From the IMG/VR virus record IMGVR_UViG_3300043673_000084, positions 1-64,000 of that record: a stretch of 64,000 nt of DNA; one strand, given 5' to 3'. This document shows positions 45,104 through 64,000 of the stretch, piece by piece. Below the pieces are notes generated by a model that made no database searches, had not been told where the DNA came from, and saw only the letters and a program-made list of their open reading frames with translations. The DNA comes from a virus. The translations under genes and the position numbers were made by a program. The number at the start of each line of letters is the position of its first letter. Positions within the stretch are counted from its first letter, which is position 1.

Positions 45104-46135
45104 TCATTTCGCCCCCTCCAATACCTCGATGCGAATCACCAGGCGGCGCTTTCCGATCCATTTTGTCAGCGGCCGCTCGATCAGTCGGTGCACGGCCACT
45201 CCGACAGCCGCACTGACCACCACTGCGGCCACCATGAACGCTACGGCTGAGAGCGCACCAATGTGCGGGAACAACTTGCTCCAAATCGTTCTCAGCAATC
45301 CCAAGGAGAACAGGTGTACCAGGTATATAGAGTAGGAGGCATCGCCCAACAGGAGGAACAATGAACTCTTGTAGTCACGGAACGCAGGGTTAAGCACACC
45401 GATAATTATCAGGCAGCACGCGGGTATCGACATCGCCAGGTCGAACCTGACACTCAAAATTCCCGCCCCAACAGCGACCATCAGCGCGGATGCCAATACG
45501 CTTTTGGGTATCCTGTCAGTCATGAACAAGTACCCTATGATGACTCCTGCGGCGAACTCGATGAGCATTGGATCAGTGTAGGTGATCAATACCGCATCAG
45601 TGAATGGCCCTGTAATGACACCGACGACCACTAACCAAACCATAGTGACAATCAACGCCGCCAACCGATAGATCTTGGGGAGAAACAGGACCATGGCGAA
45701 TATGCCGTAGAAGAACATTTCATAGTTCAGCGTCCACCCCGGGATGATCAGCGGCCAGATATGGTCCGGGGATGTGATCGAGTATTGAGGGATGAACAAC
45801 AGGCTCTTTACCAGCGCACCTTCAGAGAATTTAAAGGTTCTAAACACGGTGGGAGCTACGACGCTGATGGCGGAAACAGCCAGGGTGACACCCCAGTACA
45901 GCGGGACTATCCTTATCGCCCTCTTTATCATGAACTGCTTCGGGGACACATCTCCCTTAAGCGCAGTAACCGCCATGATGAATCCGCTGATCAAGAAGAA
46001 CAGTTCCACTCCCATGCCGCCAAGCGGGTAACTGCCGAGTACCTTACCGTACTGGTCGGGCAACTCCCAAAGGCCGTGGAACACCACGACCATCAGGGCC
46101 GCGATCGCGCGCAGATATTGAATTGGCTTAATCAT
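45104..46135 (-). CDS. acyltransferase-3 membrane protein (surface glycan modification)
   Basis: 343 aa from ATG 46135 (AAGGACG upstream; the frame is open to 46306). IQYLRAIAALMVVVFHGLWE contains the family's catalytic His; ELFFLISGFIMAV, then MIKRAIRIVPLYW, are also diagnostic. About ten membrane segments. Acyltransferase-3 proteins O-acetylate O-antigen, capsule or other glycans. In a prophage this commonly changes host surface and blocks superinfection (lysogenic conversion). A+T content is higher than in neighbouring genes, suggesting transfer. Confidence 0.88.
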   Translation of the reverse strand: MIKPIQYLRAIAALMVVVFHGLWELPDQYGKVLGSYPLGGMGVELFFLISGFIMAVTALKGDVSPKQFMIKRAIRIVPLYWGVTLAVSAISVVAPTVFRTFKFSEGALVKSLLFIPQYSITSPDHIWPLIIPGWTLNYEMFFYGIFAMVLFLPKIYRLAALIVTMVWLVVVGVITGPFTDAVLITYTDPMLIEFAAGVIIGYLFMTDRIPKSVLASALMVAVGAGILSVRFDLAMSIPACCLIIIGVLNPAFRDYKSSLFLLLGDASYSIYLVHLFSLGLLRTIWSKLFPHIGALSAVAFMVAAVVVSAAVGVAVHRLIERPLTKWIGKRRLVIRIEVLEGAK

Positions 46136-46202
46136 GATTTTCGTCCTTGAAGTGAATCCGTACCATCCTTCAGCGCAAGTGAGTCTAGCAAATATCTGCA
46201 GG

Positions 46203-47024
46203 TCACTTACGATTCTCCGGTAGCGTACCCGGGTAGTGGTTGGCAATGATCGCGTTGAGTTTGTCAACCAGGTCAGAGCGCAGAAACGTAATATGTCCAT
46301 TACCATTCTTGAACCACTTCACGGACATATAGGCGTCCACGTGCTCGCCAGTGGGCTTCTGTCCATGCGCGGCGCGCATTCGTGATTCGATGCTGGTGCG
46401 GTGATCCTCTTCCGGCTTTCCATCGACGATGCAGAACACACGCTGCAAGTCCTGCAGGTCGTTCATGGCGCTGTAGTTGAAGCCACCCCATTTCTCAGCG
46501 AGATATCCCTTGATGATGCGCTTGCCAAACTTCACCGGGTTGTTGGTCTTGTAATCCCAACTCAGTTTTTTGAAGCAGTTGATTACGCCACGGTCGAACA
46601 TGTCATTGCGACCGGCGTAGAGCGCGCCAAAACTGGCCTCGATGTTCTCGTGGGTCAGCGGCGGCGTTTTGCAGTCATTCACCTGGCCAGAGAATTCTGC
46701 TTTGGCCTTTGAATCCATGAAGGACAACAGGCCAGAATCGTGCATGAGCTTTCCCCACAGCGCGGCGTCCAGGCGTTTGACTACCTCTTTTAGCCCATCC
46801 TCGGAAAGCAGCGGGTTCGTGTAGTGCTGGTGATTTCCTTGGATCACCCAGTCAAACTGCCGGTAGCTCTCGGTCAGTAGTCCGCCCTCGACGGTGATGC
46901 GGCGCGCTTCGGCCAGCGTGTGGACTACTTCGTGAAGCAGCTTGACCAGGCCATCGCGCTTGCGCAGCAGGCCTTCAATGCTGATGGACGATACGACGTC
47001 GCCGGCGTGCAGCTCGGCGCTCAT
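46203..47024 (-). CDS. DUF4942 protein
   Basis: 273 aa from ATG 47024. ISIEGLLRKRDGLVKLLHE, VKRLDAALWGKLMHDSGLLS, PPLTHENIEASFGALYAGR, MFDRGVINCFKKLSWDYKTN, then FGKRIIKGYL and KWFKNGNGHITFLRSDLVDK: complete DUF4942 signature. Family is common in phages and plasmids; role not established. Coupled upstream by ATGA. Confidence 0.88.
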   Translation of the reverse strand: MSAELHAGDVVSSISIEGLLRKRDGLVKLLHEVVHTLAEARRITVEGGLLTESYRQFDWVIQGNHQHYTNPLLSEDGLKEVVKRLDAALWGKLMHDSGLLSFMDSKAKAEFSGQVNDCKTPPLTHENIEASFGALYAGRNDMFDRGVINCFKKLSWDYKTNNPVKFGKRIIKGYLAEKWGGFNYSAMNDLQDLQRVFCIVDGKPEEDHRTSIESRMRAAHGQKPTGEHVDAYMSVKWFKNGNGHITFLRSDLVDKLNAIIANHYPGTLPENRK

Positions 47025-54740: not shown

Positions 54741-54958
54741 ACCTCTGGCTCCGTATAGACCATGTTCGCCACCACGCGCGCGATCGTCGGCTGCGTGACG
54801 CCGTAATCGAGCGCCAACTCCAACTGCGTCGCCTCGCGGCGGAAATACCGGCGGCGAATCTCACGCGCCTTTTTCAAGTTGAGCCGGCGCGGCTTGCGAA
54901 ATACCAGCCCGTCGCGACTGCGCGATCGGTAGCTAAAATCAGGGACCGGGCGAGGCAT
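54737..54958 (-). CDS. small helix-turn-helix protein (73 aa)
   Basis: 73 aa. ATQLELALDYGVTQPTIARV is a resolvase/HNH-associated helix-turn-helix; the N-terminus is basic. Shares one base with the methyltransferase stop (TAATG). Confidence 0.55.
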   Translation of the reverse strand: MPRPVPDFSYRSRSRDGLVFRKPRRLNLKKAREIRRRYFRREATQLELALDYGVTQPTIARVVANMVYTEPEV

Positions 54959-56451
54959 TAGGCGACCTCTGCGACGGCGGCCTGCTCAACCACATTTGCG
55001 CGAACCAGGGCCTTGGCCTCGACAGGCGAAACCGAATTGCCGCACATATTGACCTGGGCGGTCTTGGTGAGCGGCTTGCCGTTGTACTCCGGGTCGATGA
55101 TGTAGTCGTCATCGAATGACTGAGCCCTGAAAAGTTCGCGGGGTTGCAGCATTCGCATGCCAATGTCGACGATGCGATACGACTCCCCATGGACGGTAAC
55201 GAGGCCAAAGCGATCTTTTGTCGTTACGGTCCCGAGAGGCGAACCGAGTCGCGGGTCCTGTTCAGTGCCATAGTATTTCAGCAAGAAGGCACGGACCTCG
55301 CCGTAGTGCGTCCCGCTGGCTTGAATCGTGTGAATCGGCGCATCAACGGGCTGGCCATCCCGGCATGTTCCCTTGAGCTTGATCAGGTGCGATGTCACCA
55401 GCGCGTGATGATCCTGCGTCGTGATCGTATGCATCGGCTGCATCATCGGTGCGCCGTCGTTTTCGTGACCACCGTAGTGGCGGGCAAGGAAGGCGGCTAC
55501 AAGCGCCCCTTGGCTCCCCGCGGCGGTGACCGTCGGATAGGGGGCCGAGATATTTCGCACGCGCGGCGCCTGCCCTGAGCGCTCGCCGTTGCGGGTGTTG
55601 ATCAGCGTCGGCGCAATCAGTGCGAGCTCGCCGCGGTGCGCGCCCGTGATGGTCGGCAAAGGACTGTCGATTGATTGACCGCGGAATCCGCCCTGGTGAG
55701 TCAGGGGTACGATAAATGGCTTCGGATTGTTGACCACGTAGCGCATGATACCGCGCGCGATTCGGCGCAACGTCGCGTCCACCAGCGGTTTGGAACGCTC
55801 GAATATCGACGGACAGGGGATTGACCAGTCAATGCACTCGGCAGCAGTGCGATACGGAAGCAGCCCTGGGCCATGCGTTTCCTGTGGCCATATGATCGGT
55901 CTTCCATCGCAGCGAGCGATGATGAATAGGCGTCGGCGCGTCGTCGGGGCGCCGTAGTCGCACGCGCTCATCTCGCGCATGTCGACGCGGTATCCTAAGT
56001 TCTCGAGCATCCTGTGCCAGCGGCGGAATGTGAATCCCTTGCGCATCGGGCACGGACTGCCGTCCTCGAGTAGCGGGCCCCAGGTCGCGAACTCGCTGAC
56101 GTTCTCCAGCATGATCACGCGCGGCCGCACCGCCTTGGCCCACCGAATGACGATCCAGGCCAGCCCACGGACGCGCTTTGAGACAGGCTTACCGCCTTTG
56201 GCGCGCGAGAAGTGCTTACAGTCTGGGCTGAACCACGCGAGCCCTACGGGCTTTCCTCCAGTGACCTCCAGTGGGTCTACCTGCCAGACATCCTCGCAGT
56301 AATGCTTCGTGCGCGGATGGTTTGCGGCATGCATCGCAATGGCTTCACGGTCGTGGTTGATCGCGAAGTCGATTGGGCGGCCCAGCGCGGCTTCAATCCC
56401 AAAACTTGCTCCGCCGCCACCGGCAAAATTATCGACAGTCAGTTCAATCAC
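54958..56451 (-). CDS. C5 cytosine DNA methyltransferase
   Basis: 497 aa. Motif I NFAGGGGASFGIEAA, motif IV AWFSPDCKHFSRA with catalytic Cys, motif VI IMLENVSEFA, motif VIII TRRRLFIIARC, then a long target-recognition region and motif X GNSVSP. The two PTITGAH / PTVTAAG-type repeats in the middle mark the phage subgroup of Dcm-like enzymes. No cognate restriction enzyme is nearby, so self-protection against host restriction is the likely use. Confidence 0.92.
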   Translation of the reverse strand: MIELTVDNFAGGGGASFGIEAALGRPIDFAINHDREAIAMHAANHPRTKHYCEDVWQVDPLEVTGGKPVGLAWFSPDCKHFSRAKGGKPVSKRVRGLAWIVIRWAKAVRPRVIMLENVSEFATWGPLLEDGSPCPMRKGFTFRRWHRMLENLGYRVDMREMSACDYGAPTTRRRLFIIARCDGRPIIWPQETHGPGLLPYRTAAECIDWSIPCPSIFERSKPLVDATLRRIARGIMRYVVNNPKPFIVPLTHQGGFRGQSIDSPLPTITGAHRGELALIAPTLINTRNGERSGQAPRVRNISAPYPTVTAAGSQGALVAAFLARHYGGHENDGAPMMQPMHTITTQDHHALVTSHLIKLKGTCRDGQPVDAPIHTIQASGTHYGEVRAFLLKYYGTEQDPRLGSPLGTVTTKDRFGLVTVHGESYRIVDIGMRMLQPRELFRAQSFDDDYIIDPEYNGKPLTKTAQVNMCGNSVSPVEAKALVRANVVEQAAVAEVA

Positions 56452-56783
56452 GTTTTTCTGTATTCCCTTAAAGCGTGTGCATGCGTCTTCGGGCTAGAAG
56501 CCAGACGCATATCGCCGGTCAATTCAATCAATCCCTGTTTCAGCCAGCGCTTGATCAGGCTAGCGGCCTGGCCTGACCAGGCGTTGTGATGGTGCGGCTC
56601 GCCCAGTCCGCAATGCTTGGCCACCATTCGCAAGGTCTCCCCAGTGAATGTGTGACCGGACGGCCGCCGGCCAAACCAGGACTGGACGTGAAGCTGGTAC
56701 GCTTCTTTCCAGTCGGACGGCTCGAATTCCAGCACCTGCTGGATTCCTGCGTCTCTCAAGGCTTGGCCGGCGGTAACTCCCAT
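56448..56783 (-). CDS. conserved phage hypothetical protein (111 aa)
   Basis: 111 aa, ATGA-coupled to the methyltransferase. EFEPSDWKEAYQLHVQSWFG, FTGETLRMVAKHCGLGEPHH and NAWSGQAASLIKRWLKQGLI form a conserved small phage family, likely helix-turn-helix-like. Function unknown. Confidence 0.6.
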   Translation of the reverse strand: MGVTAGQALRDAGIQQVLEFEPSDWKEAYQLHVQSWFGRRPSGHTFTGETLRMVAKHCGLGEPHHHNAWSGQAASLIKRWLKQGLIELTGDMRLASSPKTHAHALREYRKT

Positions 56784-56786
56784 GGA

Positions 56787-57605
56787 CTAGAACCGGCGTC
56801 CGGCGTACAGCTTGACGTCGGGTGCACCCTTGCGGATCTCGTCGGTGACGACCTTTACCGCAGCATTCCAGACTTCCAACGGGCGGATCAACTGATAGCC
56901 CATCTTCAGTTTCCCTTCCTCCATGCGGTAGCGGAAACGCGCCTCCAGCGCTTGCGGTGAGCCATCTACAAAGACAGGCATCTTCAGCGTGAAGCTTTGC
57001 GGAATGAGCAAGTCGCCGGCCTTCGTCTGGCCCTTGACCACTTCCTCGTATCTGAAATTGACCTGACCGTTGTCCAGGCGCACTTCGCTTTGGAATTCAG
57101 CGGACTTGTGGATCTGCAATTGCAGGGCAACTTCCATGAACACCGCGCCGGGCGGGGAAACGATTTCCTTCAGATTCGTCTCGAGGAACGCGGCAAAAGC
57201 GACTTGCTCAAACCATTGTCCGTCTTTTTCGGTCCACGCTTTCCACTGCTCAGACTTCGGGCAGTTGTAAACGGCAAGGTGGTCCTGGGTTCCACGGCCG
57301 CCGGCATTCTCAGACCCGTGATAGTCCAGGACGGTTTCGTACTGGGCAGTCGGTTCATTGGCAAAAATCGTGGATTCATCGCTCTTGAATCGATTCACGT
57401 ATTCGACGTAGGAGGGAACATTGAGCAGTTCCACGCGCTGCTTTATGCGGTCAGGCGGCGGGAGAAACTTCGAAAGGTCCTCAACCTTCATGCCTTCAGG
57501 GATGATCCCGAACTTCTTTTCAGGAACTTGACCCTCCATGCCGACGTCCACGATGTGCGGCGTCCGGGTTGTATCGACAATTTTCTGAATCGTATCGGCG
57601 TCCAT
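56787..57605 (-). CDS. DUF2303 family protein
   Basis: 272 aa. PEGMKVEDLSKFLPPPDRIK, TVLDYHGSENAGG, WTEKDGQWFEQVAFAAFLE and RPLEVWNAAVKVVTDEIRKG match DUF2303 (YfdQ-like), always in phage recombination/early regions. Role unknown. Confidence 0.88.
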   Translation of the reverse strand: MDADTIQKIVDTTRTPHIVDVGMEGQVPEKKFGIIPEGMKVEDLSKFLPPPDRIKQRVELLNVPSYVEYVNRFKSDESTIFANEPTAQYETVLDYHGSENAGGRGTQDHLAVYNCPKSEQWKAWTEKDGQWFEQVAFAAFLETNLKEIVSPPGAVFMEVALQLQIHKSAEFQSEVRLDNGQVNFRYEEVVKGQTKAGDLLIPQSFTLKMPVFVDGSPQALEARFRYRMEEGKLKMGYQLIRPLEVWNAAVKVVTDEIRKGAPDVKLYAGRRF

Positions 57606-57953
57606 TTACGCTGCGCTCCCTTCAACCATGATTTCGCCAGTGGATTTATCGACTGCGCCGAAGGGCAGTTGACTCTGCGCAGGGTCTTGGCGTGACAACC
57701 CATTGTCAGCAGTCGGGTAGAAGACGGTATCGCCACGATCCAGTTTCGGGATCTTCGTGTCGATGTCGTCTTCAATGGTGACGTATGTCACCACGCCACT
57801 TTTGGGCGGCTTGATTTTCAGCTTCAGCGTGAGAGTCGCCGGCTTGCCGGTTGACTTCACCGCCACCAGGGCCTTGGCGAGCTCATCGCCCAGGTCTTCC
57901 AGAGTGCGCCCCATGCGCAGATCCCGGAGGGTTTCAAAAAAGGGTCGTGCCAT
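57606..57953 (-). CDS. DUF2303-partner protein (115 aa)
   Basis: 115 aa. KPATLTLKLKIKPPKSGVV and GDTVFYPTADNGLSRQDP; this small beta-rich protein regularly precedes DUF2303 genes. Ends next to the DUF2303 start. Confidence 0.6.
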   Translation of the reverse strand: MARPFFETLRDLRMGRTLEDLGDELAKALVAVKSTGKPATLTLKLKIKPPKSGVVTYVTIEDDIDTKIPKLDRGDTVFYPTADNGLSRQDPAQSQLPFGAVDKSTGEIMVEGSAA

Positions 57954-58223
57954 TCAAATCTCCTGTTTATCGTCTGTGGGCGCGGCGGCTTCGACCACCG
58001 CAGTTTCGTTTGGACAGTTATTGCACCATTCGCCGGATGGCTCGCCATGCGGGCAAAGATTCGCGGCATCTTCAATGTGCAGCTTCGGCATGCATTGATA
58101 TGTGCTGGCGGCATTTACCACCGCGGCGACTCGTCCGAGACACAACACTTCTTCATCGCTCAATTCCATGACGAGTTGTGTTTTGTCGTCGCATCCTTGC
58201 AGTCGAATCAGGTGTTTTTTCAT
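57954..58223 (-). CDS. hypothetical protein (89 aa)
   Basis: 89 aa. C-terminal Cys pairs (CPHGEPSGEWCNNCP) suggest a zinc site. ATGA-coupled to the DUF1364 gene. No family recognised. Confidence 0.55.
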   Translation of the reverse strand: MKKHLIRLQGCDDKTQLVMELSDEEVLCLGRVAAVVNAASTYQCMPKLHIEDAANLCPHGEPSGEWCNNCPNETAVVEAAAPTDDKQEI

Positions 58224-58540
58224 GCAGCTTCAACTCCACGCTTCAGCGCTCCAATCTTTCCCATGCCAATCAGGACGGTCCATGTTTCAAGGCATCCTTC
58301 GGCGTGGGCAAAGCGAATTTGTTCTTTGGTGTAGCCCTCAAGATTCGCGCGGCCGTCGACAACCTCGTGGCAACAGAAGCACGCAAAGGCAACAATCAGG
58401 TCGTGCGGCTTGAGCGCCATTCCGGCGCCGAGTCTCAAGCTGCGGTAGTGCGCGGGCACCGTGGTTCTCGGGTCGAAATTGCAGCACGGCAGGCGGATAG
58501 TGCAGCGCTGGCCTCGAGCGAGATTGGTAAGCCAACTCAT
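58220..58540 (-). CDS. DUF1364 phage nuclease-like protein
   Basis: 106 aa from ATG 58540. MSWLTNLARGQRCTIRLPCC, then AGMALKPHDLIVAFACFCCH: DUF1364 of lambdoid and related phages, a Cys/His protein proposed to be an HNH-type nuclease in recombination. The ATG overlaps the RT stop (ATGA 58537-58540), so the DGR is built into the phage operon. Confidence 0.8.
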   Translation of the reverse strand: MSWLTNLARGQRCTIRLPCCNFDPRTTVPAHYRSLRLGAGMALKPHDLIVAFACFCCHEVVDGRANLEGYTKEQIRFAHAEGCLETWTVLIGMGKIGALKRGVEAA

Positions 58541-59802
58541 GCGGCATCCTTGAGCGCGGCGCGCAGCCAAGGAAATCGCTTTCCGATGCCAGATCTAAGG
58601 CGGAAACTGTCAGCGTGACTGAAATGTCCTGCGTAACTAGAGCAAACTGATTTCAGTTCATCCAGCGCGTCGATGTCACTAGTTACCTTCCCATCGATGA
58701 CGTTCCGATTGCGCCATTCGGTGATCTTTGCGATGCAATGTCCTGATACTCGGCGGCGCACCACGGTATGGGTCGGATATACCACGTACCCAAGGAAGTC
58801 GATTCCAGCCGAGACCGGCTTTAGTTTTATGTCAGCCTTGAGCTCAAGCGACAGTTGATCGGCCAGAAATCTCTCGATCTCGATTCGCCACTGATTCAAC
58901 TGATCTCGGTCTGAATGCAGCAGAACGAAATCATCCACGTATCTTAGGTAGCGCTTTACCGCCAATCGACGCTTGACGAACTGGTCCAATCGATCCAGGT
59001 ATACGTTTGCAAAAAATTGGCTCGATAGATTGCCGATCGGGATACCGAATCCGGCCGGCGCGCGCTCCAGGCGCTTATGCTCTGGGATGGAAGCTAACTC
59101 TGCGGGAGTGCAGGCGTATCTCACGCCATAAGCAACAGGCGATCGCTTCAGCAGCGCGTGGACGGCATGCTGACACTCTGGCGATACGCCAAAGCGCTCC
59201 ATTTTTTCCTTGAGCATTCGATAAAGAATCGGCCGGCTGATCCGGTTGAAGAAATTCTTGATGTCAAGTTGCAGGAAATGCCCTGCACCGGTCTGCCGGA
59301 CAAACTGTTGAAGTCTCCGGACGGCAGCGTGCGTTCCCTTGCCAATTCGGTTCGAATAGCTGTCGAAAATGAATGATTGCTCGTAAATTCGCTCCAGCTG
59401 CGGGACAAGCCAGTGGTGAACGACCCTATCGGAGAAGTCTGGCGCGTGAATTTCACGTGCCTTCGGCGCTTTTGCGACAAAGCAGGTTGTCGGACTCGGT
59501 TCCCAAGTGCCGGCCAGAAGAGACTTCTCAAGTTCAATCAGCCGGTCGATCCATTGATCATCGAAGGACAATTGATTCGGGCTTGGCTTCTTGCGTCGGT
59601 GAGCCCTACGCATAGCAGTGTGGAGGGCACGGAAACTCGGCGTTTGACTCTCACTGGCGCGGACCGCGCGGACACGATAGTCGTTGTTCTGGTTGTTCCA
59701 GTTCGTATTGCCATTGTTGAAATTGACTATCCACGCGTAATCGGCTGTTATCCCACGCACTTGAGACGCGGCCGCGCGGTCGGGCAGGCGCGGCGTTGTC
59801 AT
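58537..59802 (-). CDS. DGR reverse transcriptase with template repeat in its N-terminal coding region
   Basis: 421 aa. RT marks: FLQLDIKNFFNRIS (motif A, Asp180), GIPIGNLSSQFFANVYLDRL (DGR-type GxxxSQ motif 4, 253-262) and LRYVDDFVLLH (YVDD, 288-291). The conserved RT core starts near residue 55; residues ~19-50 are the translated TR (WIVNFNNGNTNWNNQNN). The ATG at 59802 overlaps the Avd stop (ATGA) and has GAGG seven bases upstream. The next in-frame ATG (59613, residue 64) has no Shine-Dalgarno, so the TR is probably translated. It should copy TR RNA with adenine errors and place the cDNA into the VRs. Confidence 0.92.
   Translation of the reverse strand: MTTPRLPDRAAASQVRGITADYAWIVNFNNGNTNWNNQNNDYRVRAVRASESQTPSFRALHTAMRRAHRRKKPSPNQLSFDDQWIDRLIELEKSLLAGTWEPSPTTCFVAKAPKAREIHAPDFSDRVVHHWLVPQLERIYEQSFIFDSYSNRIGKGTHAAVRRLQQFVRQTGAGHFLQLDIKNFFNRISRPILYRMLKEKMERFGVSPECQHAVHALLKRSPVAYGVRYACTPAELASIPEHKRLERAPAGFGIPIGNLSSQFFANVYLDRLDQFVKRRLAVKRYLRYVDDFVLLHSDRDQLNQWRIEIERFLADQLSLELKADIKLKPVSAGIDFLGYVVYPTHTVVRRRVSGHCIAKITEWRNRNVIDGKVTSDIDALDELKSVCSSYAGHFSHADSFRLRSGIGKRFPWLRAALKDAA
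59653..59747 (-). repeat. TR: DGR template repeat (TR), 95 bp
   Basis: Shares 95 bp with both VRs. It carries 28 coding-strand adenines, mostly in nine AAY (Asn) codons. VR1 differs at 15 and VR2 at 13 of these adenines; the 67 non-adenine positions are identical in all three copies. It lies in frame inside the RT gene, residues ~19-50. Confidence 0.95.
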
Positions 59803-60230
59803 GGTCTTGCCTCTGAGGCGGCATGGGAACTCAGAATCTCGGCACTCTGGAACGGCAATTGTTTTGCCGCTCCATTCTGGCCATTTGAACGCTGCTGCTT
59901 ACGCCACCCTCCACACTGCTTGCCCAGGTCCGAGGCTAACTTCGCGAGCATTTCGAACTGCGCGAAACTCACGAAGGCCTCGATGTTCTTGCCGAGTTGT
60001 AGACTCAGCTTAAAATCGTCAACCGCCCATATCAGTTTGTCGGTCCATTGCGCCTGGTGCTTTCGATCCCTCCAGGCGCGATGAGCCAATTGCGCCACGC
60101 GCATTGCTTGTTCCCGGAGTCTGGCTCCATGCGAATATTTGTGATACCTCGTAAAGCGGCGAACCGCCTGCTCTATTTCAAGAAGCAAGCGCTCCGCATT
60201 TTTCACGATGGGCGGTAAGTCAAGACTCAT
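59799..60230 (-). CDS. avd: Avd-like DGR accessory protein
   Basis: 143 aa. Basic four-helix-bundle-type protein (AERLLLEIEQAVRRFTRYHK, LREQAMRVAQLAHRAW, LKLSLQLGKNIEAFVSFAQF), matching the Avd/S23-like family that binds the RT and TR RNA in DGRs. Coupled by ATGA to target 2 upstream (60227-60230) and RT downstream (59799-59802). The C-terminal ~35 residues are low-complexity. Confidence 0.88.
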   Translation of the reverse strand: MSLDLPPIVKNAERLLLEIEQAVRRFTRYHKYSHGARLREQAMRVAQLAHRAWRDRKHQAQWTDKLIWAVDDFKLSLQLGKNIEAFVSFAQFEMLAKLASDLGKQCGGWRKQQRSNGQNGAAKQLPFQSAEILSSHAASEARP

Positions 60231-60772
60231 CTAACGTTCCAAAAATCCGAATTTCCCTGACTGGCGCGGACCGCGCGGACACGATAGCCGTTGTCCTGGT
60301 CGTCCCAGAGCGCACCGCCATTGCCGAAATAGACTATCCACGCGGAATCGGCTGGGTTTGAATGGGCCGGAGTCGACGTCCAGTAGTACGTTGACTTGCA
60401 CTCAAAGAAATCCGTGTCGATACACGGATCGTGGCGCTCATAGTCAACCAGCGTCAGCAATTCACGGATCGTCGGGAGTCGCCAATCTGAATGGCCGCCA
60501 ACTCGAAGGTTGGCGCAGGCGTCCTTGGCCTTAGCCCAGTTCATCTCGCCAAGTGACTTCTGAGCCCATACGAGGCCGGTGGCGGAATCGCCAACCATTT
60601 CATCGCCAAGTTTCGAAAACCGCGCATTGATCGCAATGCGCGGATTTACATCTATCCCGGGACTGTCACTCTCATTGCACAAAGTGCTTGTGATAGCGAA
60701 TATTTCCCTTGGGGAAGCCTTTGCGATTCTCTGCGCGATCAATTCGCGCAGTTCATTGCCAAGTGTTTTCAC
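60227..60772 (-). CDS. DGR target protein 2 (DUF1566/C-type-lectin-like)
   Basis: 181 aa, GGGAG upstream of the ATG. Residues ~60-180 are a DUF1566/Lcl-type domain: ATGLVWAQKSL, then GGHSDWRLPTIRELLTLVD, then TYYWTSTPAHSNPADSAW. VR2 encodes residues ~140-171 near the C-terminus, followed by ten fixed residues (QGNSDFWNVR without the first). An extra ~50-residue N-terminal part is absent from target 1. No signal or membrane segment. The variable loop should contact a ligand, probably on a cell or virion surface. Confidence 0.88.
   Translation of the reverse strand: MKTLGNELRELIAQRIAKASPREIFAITSTLCNESDSPGIDVNPRIAINARFSKLGDEMVGDSATGLVWAQKSLGEMNWAKAKDACANLRVGGHSDWRLPTIRELLTLVDYERHDPCIDTDFFECKSTYYWTSTPAHSNPADSAWIVYFGNGGALWDDQDNGYRVRAVRASQGNSDFWNVR
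60260..60354 (-). repeat. VR2: DGR variable repeat 2 (VR2)
   Basis: 95 bp at the 3' end of target 2. Thirteen substitutions relative to the TR, all at template adenines, including changes to C, G and T. Immediately past the repeat (60259) the base is G on the plus strand, where the TR has C. Confidence 0.95.
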
Positions 60773-60797
60773 TTCGATCTCTCCCTAAAAACCTAAA

Positions 60798-61211
60798 TTA
60801 CTGACTGGCGCGGACCGCGCGGACACGATAGCCGTCGTTCTGGGCGCCCCAGTCCGCACCGCCATCGTCGAAATCGACTAACCACGCGCAATCGGCTGGA
60901 TACTTGGCGACCACTGTTCCAGTCCAATACCAATCGTTGTGGCAGTTCGGAAAGAATCCCTTGTCGATGGCAGGCTCGAACTTGGTTCGGTCTGCCAGCA
61001 TGAAGAGCTCTTCAACGGTCGGCAGACGCCAATCTTTGAAGCCAGCCACTTCAGATCCGTTTGCGTGAGACTGAGCGGCAGCGAAATTCAGTTCTTCGGT
61101 CTCGCCGGCGTCCCAAATAAGCCCCGTCGTGTTGTCGAGAACGGCTACCCATTCATTGGCGCCGTCATCCAATTTCGCGCCATCCTTTCCAATCTTCGTG
61201 AACCTATTCAT
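60798..61211 (-). CDS. DGR target protein 1 (DUF1566/C-type-lectin-like)
   Basis: 137 aa, AGAGGA upstream of the ATG. The whole protein is a minimal DUF1566 domain: NTTGLIWDAGETEELNF, then FKDWRLPTVEELFMLADR, then DWYWTGTVVAKYPADCAW. VR1 encodes residues ~106-136, and the protein ends one residue later. No signal peptide. It is 25 bp upstream of target 2; the two share the same fold and VR but little else, so they are old duplicates. Confidence 0.88.
   Translation of the reverse strand: MNRFTKIGKDGAKLDDGANEWVAVLDNTTGLIWDAGETEELNFAAAQSHANGSEVAGFKDWRLPTVEELFMLADRTKFEPAIDKGFFPNCHNDWYWTGTVVAKYPADCAWLVDFDDGGADWGAQNDGYRVRAVRASQ
60804..60898 (-). repeat. VR1: DGR variable repeat 1 (VR1)
   Basis: 95 bp at the 3' end of target 1. 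Fifteen substitutions relative to the TR, all at template adenines. The plus-strand base past the repeat is G (60803) against C in the TR, as in VR2. Confidence 0.95.
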
Positions 61212-61229
61212 TTGTATCCTCTTGTTGAT

Positions 61230-61685
61230 TTAAGCGGCAGCGCCGTATTTTTCGTCGGCGTATCTCGAAACTTCGGCGGCCAGGTCGGACTGCGCCATGT
61301 CCAGGAGGCGGGCGCAGATCGTCATCATTCCCCCCATGATTCGGCCAAACTCCACGTCATCCGGGATCGCGTCATAACTGAGGCTCCCAGGCATATTTTT
61401 GATCTCGCCATCCACGGTCGTGTATTCCCTGGTGTAGCCAGATTCCTCGGCGATGGCGTAGCGGAAATTGGTGAAGGTCATGAACTTCTTTTCCCAATGT
61501 TCCGGCAGGTTCGCCCAGGTCAGATTCAGCAGGGCCATGCAAAGTTTGTGGTGCTGGTAGTTGCGTGGCTTCACTACATCTGCGCGATAGACCTCACCGA
61601 TCTTGTACTTGCGATGAACGTCCTGGGACGCCTCGTCGGCGCATACAAAGCCGGTGAGAGTCTTGCGCAGATATAGTTGAGCCAT
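61230..61685 (-). CDS. DUF1367 phage protein
   Basis: 151 aa. AQLYLRKTLTGFVCADEAS, KIGEVYRADVVKPRNYQHHK and CMALLNLTWANLPEHWEKKF match DUF1367 of lambdoid phages (NinB-region analogue). Separated from the SbcC-like gene by three bases and from target 1 by 18. Function unknown. Confidence 0.85.
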   Translation of the reverse strand: MAQLYLRKTLTGFVCADEASQDVHRKYKIGEVYRADVVKPRNYQHHKLCMALLNLTWANLPEHWEKKFMTFTNFRYAIAEESGYTREYTTVDGEIKNMPGSLSYDAIPDDVEFGRIMGGMMTICARLLDMAQSDLAAEVSRYADEKYGAAA

Positions 61686-61688
61686 GGA

Positions 61689-63002
61689 CTAGGCCGCTTC
61701 TTCGGTCGCGGCCTTCACGCGCCCATCGGATATCACCAGCGCTGAATCGCTGTGCGCGAATACCGATTCCACCCACACCTGGCATTCGTTCTCGGCGGCC
61801 ATCGCGGTCAGAAGCGCGAAGCTCTCCTGGTCCAGTAGTCCGCCATCGCGGATCCTGATGACCCGAAGCTTGCTGTTCGAGCGCATCGCTATGGCAATGC
61901 TGGCCTTCAGTTGCTCGGCGCTTGATGCCTGATCGAACGGCAGGCCATTCAGCGTTATGAACCCATCCCCAAACCCCAAGCCATCCACGGGCATTTCGGC
62001 GGCCGCAATGGCGTCGTTCTTCGCTTTGGTGCGGGCCTTGATGCTGGCGGACAATTCGTCGGACTTGAGGGCTGCATCGGTCGCAACCTTTTCCAGCGAT
62101 GACTTTTTGCGGCGAGCCTCGGATGCGGTTCGGATGCGAGCGTTAAGCGCCTGGGTCTGCGTCAGTCCGGCGCGCAGCTCCTTGACGTCCTTCAGTGCCT
62201 CCAGGGGCGGGAGTGCCTGTACGGCCTCGCGTTGCTCATTCACCTGGCGATCCAGGGACAACGCAACGGTCTCCATTTGCTCGGCCTTGGCCCGAAGGTC
62301 AGCGGCTTCCTTGCGGCGTTCGTCGGCGGTCCTGACAAGGCGCGCGACGTCAGAGATGACGTTGTTTCGGCGGTTCAACTCCTTTTCGATGTCTGAATTG
62401 AACTGCGCGGCGCCGGCGATATCGTCCAGCAGCTTGGATTCGTCGGTCTCGTCTTCCGGTAGATCTCCCGGAATTTCGATCAGACCGGCGGCGGCCTTCG
62501 CTTCCTCCATGCGCTTATTCGCTTCGGCGCGGCGCTCAAAGTCGCCACGGTTCTGGTTATCGACCTTTTCAAAATCGATTCCAGGCACGAATCCGCGCAG
62601 CATGTCGAACTGTTCTTTCGGCTTCTTGCGGGAGAATTCCAGGGGGTCGAATGTCAGACTAGACAGCAGCGCATCCAGCATTGTCTGCGGGCTCTTGTAG
62701 CTCGAGCCGTCTGCCCCCTCGACCTTGACCGATGTCGTGAACTTGTCATCGCCCTGGCGCTTGAATGTGCGCGTGACGATCAACTCACCAAGGTCTAGCT
62801 TTATACTGGCCCTTTCTGCGCCGCGGCGGATCGGCTCGCTTTGGATGGTGCCGACACCGGCAAGGGCCCACCAGATGGCATCCAGGGTGCTGGTCTTGCC
62901 ATTGGCGTTAGCACCACTGATTTCAATGACATCGCCCTCTGGTGTAATGTCCACGGCATAGAGCCGCTTCAGGTTTTCTGCTTCCAATCGTAGGATCTTC
63001 AC
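61689..63002 (-). CDS. SbcC/RecN-like ATPase
   Basis: 437 aa. KILRLEAENLKRLYAVDITP and Walker A SGANANGKTS (30-38) at the start; a long coiled coil (~160-340), then the C-terminal ATPase half (GFGDGFITLNGLPFDQASSA with signature-like Ser/Gly, and LRVIRIRDGGLLDQ). This is an SMC-type end-recognition ATPase, shorter than SbcC, placed beside RecT: likely a phage recombination factor. Confidence 0.8.
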   Translation of the reverse strand: MKILRLEAENLKRLYAVDITPEGDVIEISGANANGKTSTLDAIWWALAGVGTIQSEPIRRGAERASIKLDLGELIVTRTFKRQGDDKFTTSVKVEGADGSSYKSPQTMLDALLSSLTFDPLEFSRKKPKEQFDMLRGFVPGIDFEKVDNQNRGDFERRAEANKRMEEAKAAAGLIEIPGDLPEDETDESKLLDDIAGAAQFNSDIEKELNRRNNVISDVARLVRTADERRKEAADLRAKAEQMETVALSLDRQVNEQREAVQALPPLEALKDVKELRAGLTQTQALNARIRTASEARRKKSSLEKVATDAALKSDELSASIKARTKAKNDAIAAAEMPVDGLGFGDGFITLNGLPFDQASSAEQLKASIAIAMRSNSKLRVIRIRDGGLLDQESFALLTAMAAENECQVWVESVFAHSDSALVISDGRVKAATEEAA

Positions 63003-63196
63003 TTTTTGTTTTCCTTTGCTTTGATTGCGTCTGTGATGTAGCGCTGACCGGCGGCGGTGGCCGCCTGTGGGCTGATGAAGAAATTGCTCAGTTCTTCATC
63101 GTCAACGTAGGCGAGGAAGTCAGGGCCCATGAACCGCACCGCAATCAATCGATCGCGGTACAGTTCGGGCAGTCCCACAAGCGGCCGCTGGATCAT
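62999..63196 (-). CDS. hypothetical protein (65 aa)
   Basis: 65 aa, between RecT and the ATPase, overlapping both by 4 bases. FMGPDFLAYVDDEELSNFFI; no family recognised. Confidence 0.55.
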   Translation of the reverse strand: MIQRPLVGLPELYRDRLIAVRFMGPDFLAYVDDEELSNFFISPQAATAAGQRYITDAIKAKENKK

Positions 63197-64000
63197 TTCT
63201 TTTCCTTCGCGGCCTTTGCGTCGCGCTGTTCGATGAATTCCTTGCGGTCGTGGAAGGTCGCTTCCAAGGAAATTGGAATCTCAACTGCCTTGAAGGCAAC
63301 TGAGACCAGCTTCCACAGCAGCTTGAGCGCATCGATGGTCTCGGCTGACTTCAGCAACTCAATTGTTTGCGCCGGCGTCTGAACACGTATGCGCTCGATT
63401 TGCTTTAGATCATCGGTATCGAAGTCCGGCTCCGCAGCCCTCGTCGCTGATTCGGCCTTATCCGCCGGCGGCTTGTCGTTGGCCTTCGGCGTGTCGGTCG
63501 GTTGCGCCTGGTCGGTGGATTCGGACTGCGCCGGCGGCGGGATGAATGCGGCGTCAATGGCATCCTTCAGGTCGATGCTCTGACGATTCCCCATCTCGGA
63601 CGTCTGATCAAGCATCAGCGCTGTCGCCAATTCAATGGACATTGGCATGTACTTGAGCACCTGGAGCAGCGGCACCTTGCGCCCGTACATTTCGAAATTG
63701 TTGTACGAGTAGTGCTTCTTCCCCACCTTGTTGTATTTGTTGCGGTGTCGGACGATCTTGCCAACTGGCCAGACTTCCATCACCGGGTACTCAGCACCCT
63801 TGACTCGACCAATCGCGTAGCAGTGCGTCAGCTTTTCTGGATCTTCATCCCCACCAGACGGCACGTGCTTGAGATACGGGCTGCTACCGAATTCGAATTC
63901 GAAGAAGTCTCCCTGGTATACGGCGCCGGTCCAGACCGATGCGCGGCCGCTGCGGTTCACCAGGTCGCACAGGCCACGCCAGCCAGGAACAAACTGGCAT
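63193..64000 (-). CDS. recT: RecT single-strand annealing protein (5' end outside window)
   Basis: At least 269 residues; the frame is open through the window edge, so the true N-terminus (~100 residues) is missing. CQFVPGWRGLCDLVNRSGRA, then WTGAVYQGDFFEFEFGSSPY is the central RecT signature, and KHYSYNNFEMYGRKVPLLQV follows. The C-terminal ~110 residues are an unusual Pro/Thr/Ala-rich linker and charged tail. RecT anneals exonuclease-resected strands in phage recombination; the nuclease partner is probably just outside the window. Confidence 0.9.
   Translation of the reverse strand, partial: CQFVPGWRGLCDLVNRSGRASVWTGAVYQGDFFEFEFGSSPYLKHVPSGGDEDPEKLTHCYAIGRVKGAEYPVMEVWPVGKIVRHRNKYNKVGKKHYSYNNFEMYGRKVPLLQVLKYMPMSIELATALMLDQTSEMGNRQSIDLKDAIDAAFIPPPAQSESTDQAQPTDTPKANDKPPADKAESATRAAEPDFDTDDLKQIERIRVQTPAQTIELLKSAETIDALKLLWKLVSVAFKAVEIPISLEATFHDRKEFIEQRDAKAAKEKK

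Follow-up and report, generated by a model that had tools for sequence, protein, structure and literature searches.

A two-target diversity-generating retroelement of a temperate myovirus, with its template repeat inside the reverse transcriptase reading frame and a structured RNA on the 5′ side of the template

The stretch of DNA analysed here, called the window, comprises positions 1 to 64,000 of the 66,218-base IMG/VR virus record IMGVR_UViG_3300043673_000084 and carries a diversity-generating retroelement (DGR) with one template repeat (TR) and two target genes. The TR lies inside the open reading frame (ORF) of the DGR reverse transcriptase (RT). In the clade of related loci, this read-through frame is maintained by selection and is tied to the stop codon of the adjoining gene, avd, and the 5′ side of the TR belongs to a conserved and covarying RNA. 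We consider it highly probable that these features belong together, i.e. that this is a two-target DGR whose RT is read through the TR and in which the same stretch serves as a template RNA with a 5′ junction. The genes and the repeat on which this reading is built are as follows.

58537 to 59802, minus strand: DGR reverse transcriptase ORF, 421 residues, with IGNLSSQ and YVDD motifs (PF00078, 1.4e-18)
59653 to 59747, minus strand: template repeat, 95 bp, inside the RT ORF in the frame of the variable repeats
59799 to 60230, minus strand: Avd, 143 residues, its TGA stop overlapping the RT ATG (ATGA); PHROG 'Avd protein of DGR', 3.8e-20

In the window, the ATG of the RT ORF shares bases with the avd stop, and the ORF holds the TR in frame. 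Its product would consist of a leader (residues 1–17), a TR-encoded segment (residues ~18–50), in which Pfam finds a remnant of the end of an Lcl_C domain (PF07603, residues 16–48), and the RT domain, which begins at about residue 53. For comparison, 160 relatives were retrieved from collections of viruses and genomes, and pairs of TR and variable repeat (VR) were located with a search in which adenines alone were free to vary. The clade is defined by an RT at least 52% identical to that of the window and, after removal of near-duplicates, consists of 88 loci; those with names are mostly prophages of Xanthomonadales-type bacteria (Stenotrophomonas, Xanthomonas, Lysobacter, Dyella, Rhodanobacter). 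The TR is within a continuous RT frame in all 96 loci at or above the 52% threshold and in 18 of the 54 loci with 35–50% RT identity, the latter being the one-in-three level expected by chance. In a FastTree phylogeny the 88-locus clade is monophyletic and never loses the open state, and the frame is closed in the sister loci L101, L104 and L106.

An independent test of read-through is the phase between the avd stop, which was placed from homology regardless of how the RT is framed, and the RT. The distance between the two takes 23 different lengths in the clade and has undergone about 41 length changes, yet 87 of the 88 loci keep the same phase, compared to a 22/16/14 distribution over the three phases in the outgroup. 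A chance open frame through the TR is rejected on the basis of this retention. The only exception is locus L024 (5524–7329, plus strand), where avd, the leader, the TR and the RT form one frame of 601 codons; this could be a natural Avd–TR–RT fusion or a sequencing frameshift. At the avd stop, ATGA or GTGA is found in 88/88 loci. In 82 of the 88 loci the reading frame of the TR is that of the VRs; in six lineages (L064, L066, L080, L082, L083 and L096) it is shifted and the TR encodes a Thr-rich peptide, yet the ORF continues into the RT. These six lineages have frameshifts on either side of the TR that compensate each other. RT homology starts 2–25 nt past the TR end in almost every clade locus, and 2 nt past it in the window; in 50 of the 88 loci, the interval from the TR end to the first invariant residues of the RT contains none of the codons ATG, GTG and TTG. 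Taken together, phase retention, the open shifted TRs and the scarcity of start codons after the TR indicate that translation of the RT passes through the TR and that the peptide encoded there is under little constraint. From these sequence patterns we infer that cells produce the long form of the RT. In the AlphaFold model, residues 1–52 have a predicted local distance difference test score (pLDDT) below 50 (block means of 31–34) and most of the RT domain scores ~83–99; the TR-encoded N-terminus is thus predicted to be disordered.

The second component of the element is an RNA that straddles the avd–RT junction. Its parts are listed below in the order of transcription.

59741 to 59847, minus strand: structured RNA, a three-way junction of P1, P2 and P3, comprising the avd 3′ end, the RT start codon and the 5′ edge of the TR
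59829 to 59834, minus strand: CTGAGT, within avd, invariant in the clade
59821 to 59827, minus strand: 5′ arm of P1, CCCATGC, within avd
59809 to 59819, minus strand: P2 hairpin, GCCT-CAG-AGGC, the 3′ arm of which takes in most of the Shine-Dalgarno-like GAGG
59800 to 59802, minus strand: RT start codon ATG, in the P2–P3 linker
59770 to 59795, minus strand: P3 hairpin, RT codons 3–11
59752 to 59758, minus strand: 3′ arm of P1, GCGTGGG, ending 4 nt before the TR

RNAalifold analysis of 43 clade sequences gives a three-way junction in which P1 pairs the 3′ end of avd with the bases immediately preceding the TR. Pairing holds in 90.7% of the cells of the junction alignment (77.7% when shuffled), with 112 double changes (30 when shuffled) and a covariation of 0.421 (0.168 when shuffled, and at most 0.111 in slid controls). 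For P3, a set of 40 sequences including outgroups shows 96 double changes versus 32 and a covariation of 0.706 versus 0.186, although the set was picked for having at least the two pairs adjoining the internal loop and is biased for those two pairs. P3 has the form N-UA-CC-loop-GG-(A/C)U-N′ in most relatives and is a plain GC stem in the window; the corresponding TACC/GGAT hairpin is present in 31/88 clade loci, 28/55 outgroup loci and 30/2860 random windows. CTGAGT, in turn, is found in 88/88 clade loci, 7/55 outgroup loci and 15/880 random windows. The Shine-Dalgarno-like GAGG (59810–59813) is located 7 nt upstream of the RT ATG.

A covariance model built from the clade (the window being part of its training set) finds the RNA upstream of the TR in the outgroup as well, e.g. 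in L101, L103, L104, L105, L106 and L111. With the exception of L111, the RT frame of these loci closes inside the TR, so that the leader there is outside the RT. Synonymous identity is 0.62–0.84 over the leader, the TR and ~9 nt beyond, compared to an RT average of ~0.55 (residue 100 onward). This profile shows that nucleotide-level selection spans the leader and the TR and not a spacer inside the RT gene. The possibility that a conserved spacer RNA lies downstream of the TR, within the part of the gene that encodes the RT domain, was considered and rejected, as synonymous identity is at the RT average from residue 54. At the window locus, Rfam gives no credible match (hits at E ≥ 0.13 only, and no DGR family at E ≤ 1). 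In seven outgroup loci (L110, L116, L133, L134, L137, L141 and L143), an additional hairpin and a AAGTGGACGGG-like motif can be seen by eye between P3 and the TR, suggesting that the architecture of the 5′ RNA varies among DGRs.

The repeats themselves carry the signature of adenine-specific mutagenesis. The variable repeats, the targets that contain them and the blocks at the 3′ ends of the repeats, which resemble the initiation of mutagenic homing (IMH) element of VRs and its TR counterpart (IMH*), are the following.

60260 to 60354, minus strand: variable repeat VR2, 95 bp
60804 to 60898, minus strand: variable repeat VR1, 95 bp
60227 to 60772, minus strand: target 2, 181 residues, GTG start; Lcl_C/DUF1566 (PF07603, 4.4e-33)
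60798 to 61211, minus strand: target 1, 137 residues; Lcl_C/DUF1566 (PF07603, 1.2e-27)
59652 to 59676, minus strand: IMH*-like 3′ block of the TR, CGTGTCCGCGCGGTCCGCGCCAGT, then the diagnostic G
60259 to 60283, minus strand: IMH-like block of VR2, with the diagnostic C at 60259
60803 to 60827, minus strand: IMH-like block of VR1, with the diagnostic C at 60803

The sense strand of the TR has 28 adenines among its 95 bp. VR1 differs from the TR at 15 positions and VR2 at 13; all 28 changes are at template adenines (18 distinct sites), and the 67 other positions are identical in the three repeats. The hypergeometric probability that all changed sites are on adenines is 3e-10 for VR1, 1e-8 for VR2 and 1e-12 for the union of sites. 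These three copies, their coordinates and their differences had been described in a first-pass annotation made from the letters of the window, and are reproduced here exactly. There is no third VR or further repeat copy in the 64-kb window. Across the 181 VR copies of the 88 non-redundant clade loci, window included, 2490 of 4139 adenine sites and 25 of 13,015 other sites are changed, the latter rate being biased low by a repeat detection that tolerated at most one non-adenine mismatch per repeat. The base 3′ of the 95 bp is G in the TR (59652) and C in VR2 (60259) and VR1 (60803), and the same difference was seen in every relative whose repeat ends were inspected, matching what is expected of IMH* and IMH. 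A hairpin or cruciform downstream of the VR belongs to the BPP-1-type architecture; by eye, GC hairpins such as GGCCTTTTGGCC follow the VRs in many relatives and are weak in the window. The TRs of relatives differ from that of the window at 10–20 non-adenine positions, and VRs follow their own TR; VR and TR evolve in concert. The first-pass annotation had also proposed that the element is active or was recently active, and the way in which the VRs follow their own TR is consistent with this.

VR1 and VR2 are located at the ends of the Lcl_C domains of the two targets, which are 44% identical to each other. Among the 81 clade loci with enough flanking sequence, 53 have two VRs, 20 have three and eight have one within the stretch analysed; a further VR is found ~2–6 kb upstream of the RT in L012, L016, L017, L020, L041, L044, L047, L055 and others.

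On these grounds, the single TR would diversify two paralogous, C-type-lectin-like Lcl_C proteins by adenine-mutagenic retrohoming, and one transcript segment would perform two jobs, those of RT message and of template RNA. Because the ATGA overlap adjoins a hairpin that contains a Shine-Dalgarno-like sequence, translation of the RT is probably coupled to that of avd. The ribosome would then pass through the structured leader and the entire TR before it reaches the RT domain, and the ~52 residues derived from the leader and TR are probably a tolerated disordered tail. When not translated, the same stretch would be the template RNA, made up of the P1–P3 junction bounding the 5′ side of the TR, the TR itself and the IMH* end. 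By analogy with BPP-1, P1–P3 may be the 5′ stop of cDNA synthesis or the site where RT and Avd dock. A more speculative extension, which we find possible but doubtful, is that read-through acts as a control: ribosomes engaged on avd would open P1 and P2, initiate RT translation at the AUG embedded there and clear the TR, making any given RNA either a message or a template, with the nascent RT capturing its own TR in cis and the 5′ junction replacing the 3′ spacer of BPP-1 in its role.

Several observations weigh against read-through and the 5′ RNA as described. Branch support for the clade is moderate (0.67), and the length-change events were counted by the Fitch method from raw distances. An ATG at RT residue 64 of the window could be an internal start, its use deleting the conserved L60 and A63. 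The UA/AU loop that related loci have in P3 is missing from the P3 of the window, the single-sequence fold has no exceptional stability (z of -1.2), and a strict GAGG/GGAG-type Shine-Dalgarno sequence is present in 38/88 loci, with GGGG in the others.

A rival view is that of an ordinary DGR in which RT translation begins internally, at a codon past the TR, and the open frame before it is a gene-calling illusion of GC-rich DNA and a stop-free VR frame. The VR frame of any TR is indeed free of stops, outgroup DGRs begin their RT at or near the 3′ end of the TR, and the window has the ATG at residue 64. However, an illusion of this kind does not account for a phase kept in all but one locus through so many length changes, for the 50 loci that offer no start codon in the interval concerned, for frame-switched TRs that stay open, or for the ATGA/GTGA found at every avd stop of the clade, and we regard it as highly improbable. 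A different explanation makes the TR-encoded N-terminus a functional domain that helps to bind, for example, Avd or RNA and whose sequence is selected as protein. The prevalence of the VR frame (82/88) and a recurring leader peptide, MTxPRYPxGCAAGSQVxG, are in its favor, but the history of the TR itself also accounts for its being read in that frame, the six shifted-frame lineages carry an unrelated Thr-rich peptide, and the segment is modeled with a pLDDT of 31–34. Furthermore, at some codons of the leader conservation is higher at the third position than at the other two (1.00 versus 0.65 at codon 5), which points to selection on RNA or DNA. A functional N-terminal domain is therefore unlikely.

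The element could also be a decaying relic with fixed VRs and no current activity, and a single copy of each VR was available for analysis. Against this, the RT, Avd and both targets are intact ORFs, and both VRs match the window TR at 67/67 non-adenine positions, tracking their own TR while the TRs of relatives have diverged from it at 10–20 such positions. We give decay very little credence. The preferred reading thus remains that of a DGR with two targets, an RT read through its template and a 5′ junction RNA.

The element is a DGR of a temperate myovirus and displays every testable feature of its class: TR/VR differences confined to adenines, an RT with (I/V)GxxxSQ and YxDD motifs, Avd, VRs at the C-termini of Lcl_C targets and the IMH/IMH* difference. 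The best PDB fold for the RT is that of the Bordetella DGR RT (PDB id: 8ub7, E of 4e-23), a tblastn search matches BPP-1 brt and other phage RTs, and DGR RTs match first, ahead of retrons and group II introns, the two groups that the first-pass annotation had set against its own assignment. Its Avd-like call for the 143-residue gene is borne out by the PHROG match, with the Pfam bAvd model below cut-off (26 bits, cut-off 40). Its two targets in a temperate myovirus likewise stand: both are Lcl_C proteins, and tail sheath, baseplate, tape measure and integrase genes, found along with terminase and portal, support such a virus. The TR inside the RT ORF (58537–59802), the RNA structure and the fixed G/C after the 95 bp go beyond that annotation. 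The DGR is at a distance from the tail genes, flanked by a DUF2303/C5-methylase stretch and by RecT/AAA ATPase recombination genes (54958–64000, minus strand). Elsewhere, an O-acetyltransferase/O-antigen acetylase homologue (45104–46306, minus strand; phrog_3333, phrog_6705) is a possible surface-modifying lysogenic conversion gene.

Most of what is understood about DGRs comes from a single phage, BPP-1, whose RT is recruited and primed by a non-coding spacer on the 3′ side of the TR. In a clade that has no 3′ spacer, reads the RT through its own template and carries a 5′ RNA, it becomes testable whether a single molecule serves as both template RNA and RT mRNA, whether the RT works in cis and how the cDNA is limited at the 5′ end of the TR. 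The covariance model is in addition a new handle for locating TR starts. We found no paper on TR translation or a 5′ RNA in the open-access literature, and, within the literature that could be searched, the selective maintenance of the TR/RT overlap together with the 5′ RNA appears to be new.

Similar to the BPP-1 DGR (mtd–avd–TR–brt), the element of the window has the order target, avd, TR and RT, adenine-specific mutagenesis, an IMH-type 3′ end, Avd and the same RT fold (8ub7). In BPP-1 a spacer of 144 nt lies between the TR and the start of brt; the element of the window has none, the TR being inside the RT ORF, and its targets are Lcl_C proteins instead of Mtd. The BPP-1 spacer folds and recruits bRT–Avd, and a motif in the end of avd terminates reverse transcription (PMC12875486). 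The covarying RNA described here is on the 5′ side of the TR, whereas the spacer RNA of BPP-1 is on the 3′ side. The brt frame of BPP-1 (L164, 1806–2470) is also open upstream through the TR, with the annotated start after the TR, possibly by chance in GC-rich DNA. The Rfam family RF03022 (Phage_DGR RNA) likewise represents a structured RNA next to the TR of phage DGRs. Its match in BPP-1 is immediately downstream of the TR (L164, 2331–2463), in contrast to the upstream position of the clade RNA; at gathering score it matched BPP-1 alone among the 11 loci searched, and it was not detected at the window locus. Multi-target DGRs and VRs in C-terminal DUF1566 (Lcl_C) domains are known (PMC6642488; Stenotrophomonas sp. 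SKA14, Vibrio cholerae), and with several VRs per TR the window DGR does not differ from them in kind. Overlap of a TR with an RT ORF was catalogued in 2012 as an arrangement of annotations, with spatial arrangement held to be irrelevant to mechanism and separate TR and RT RNAs supposed (PMC3521204). The comparative sequence evidence argues against that view for this clade. The position of the TR relative to the RT ORF is the same as in those cases, and to it are added here a maintained frame, its link to the avd stop and a conserved RNA.

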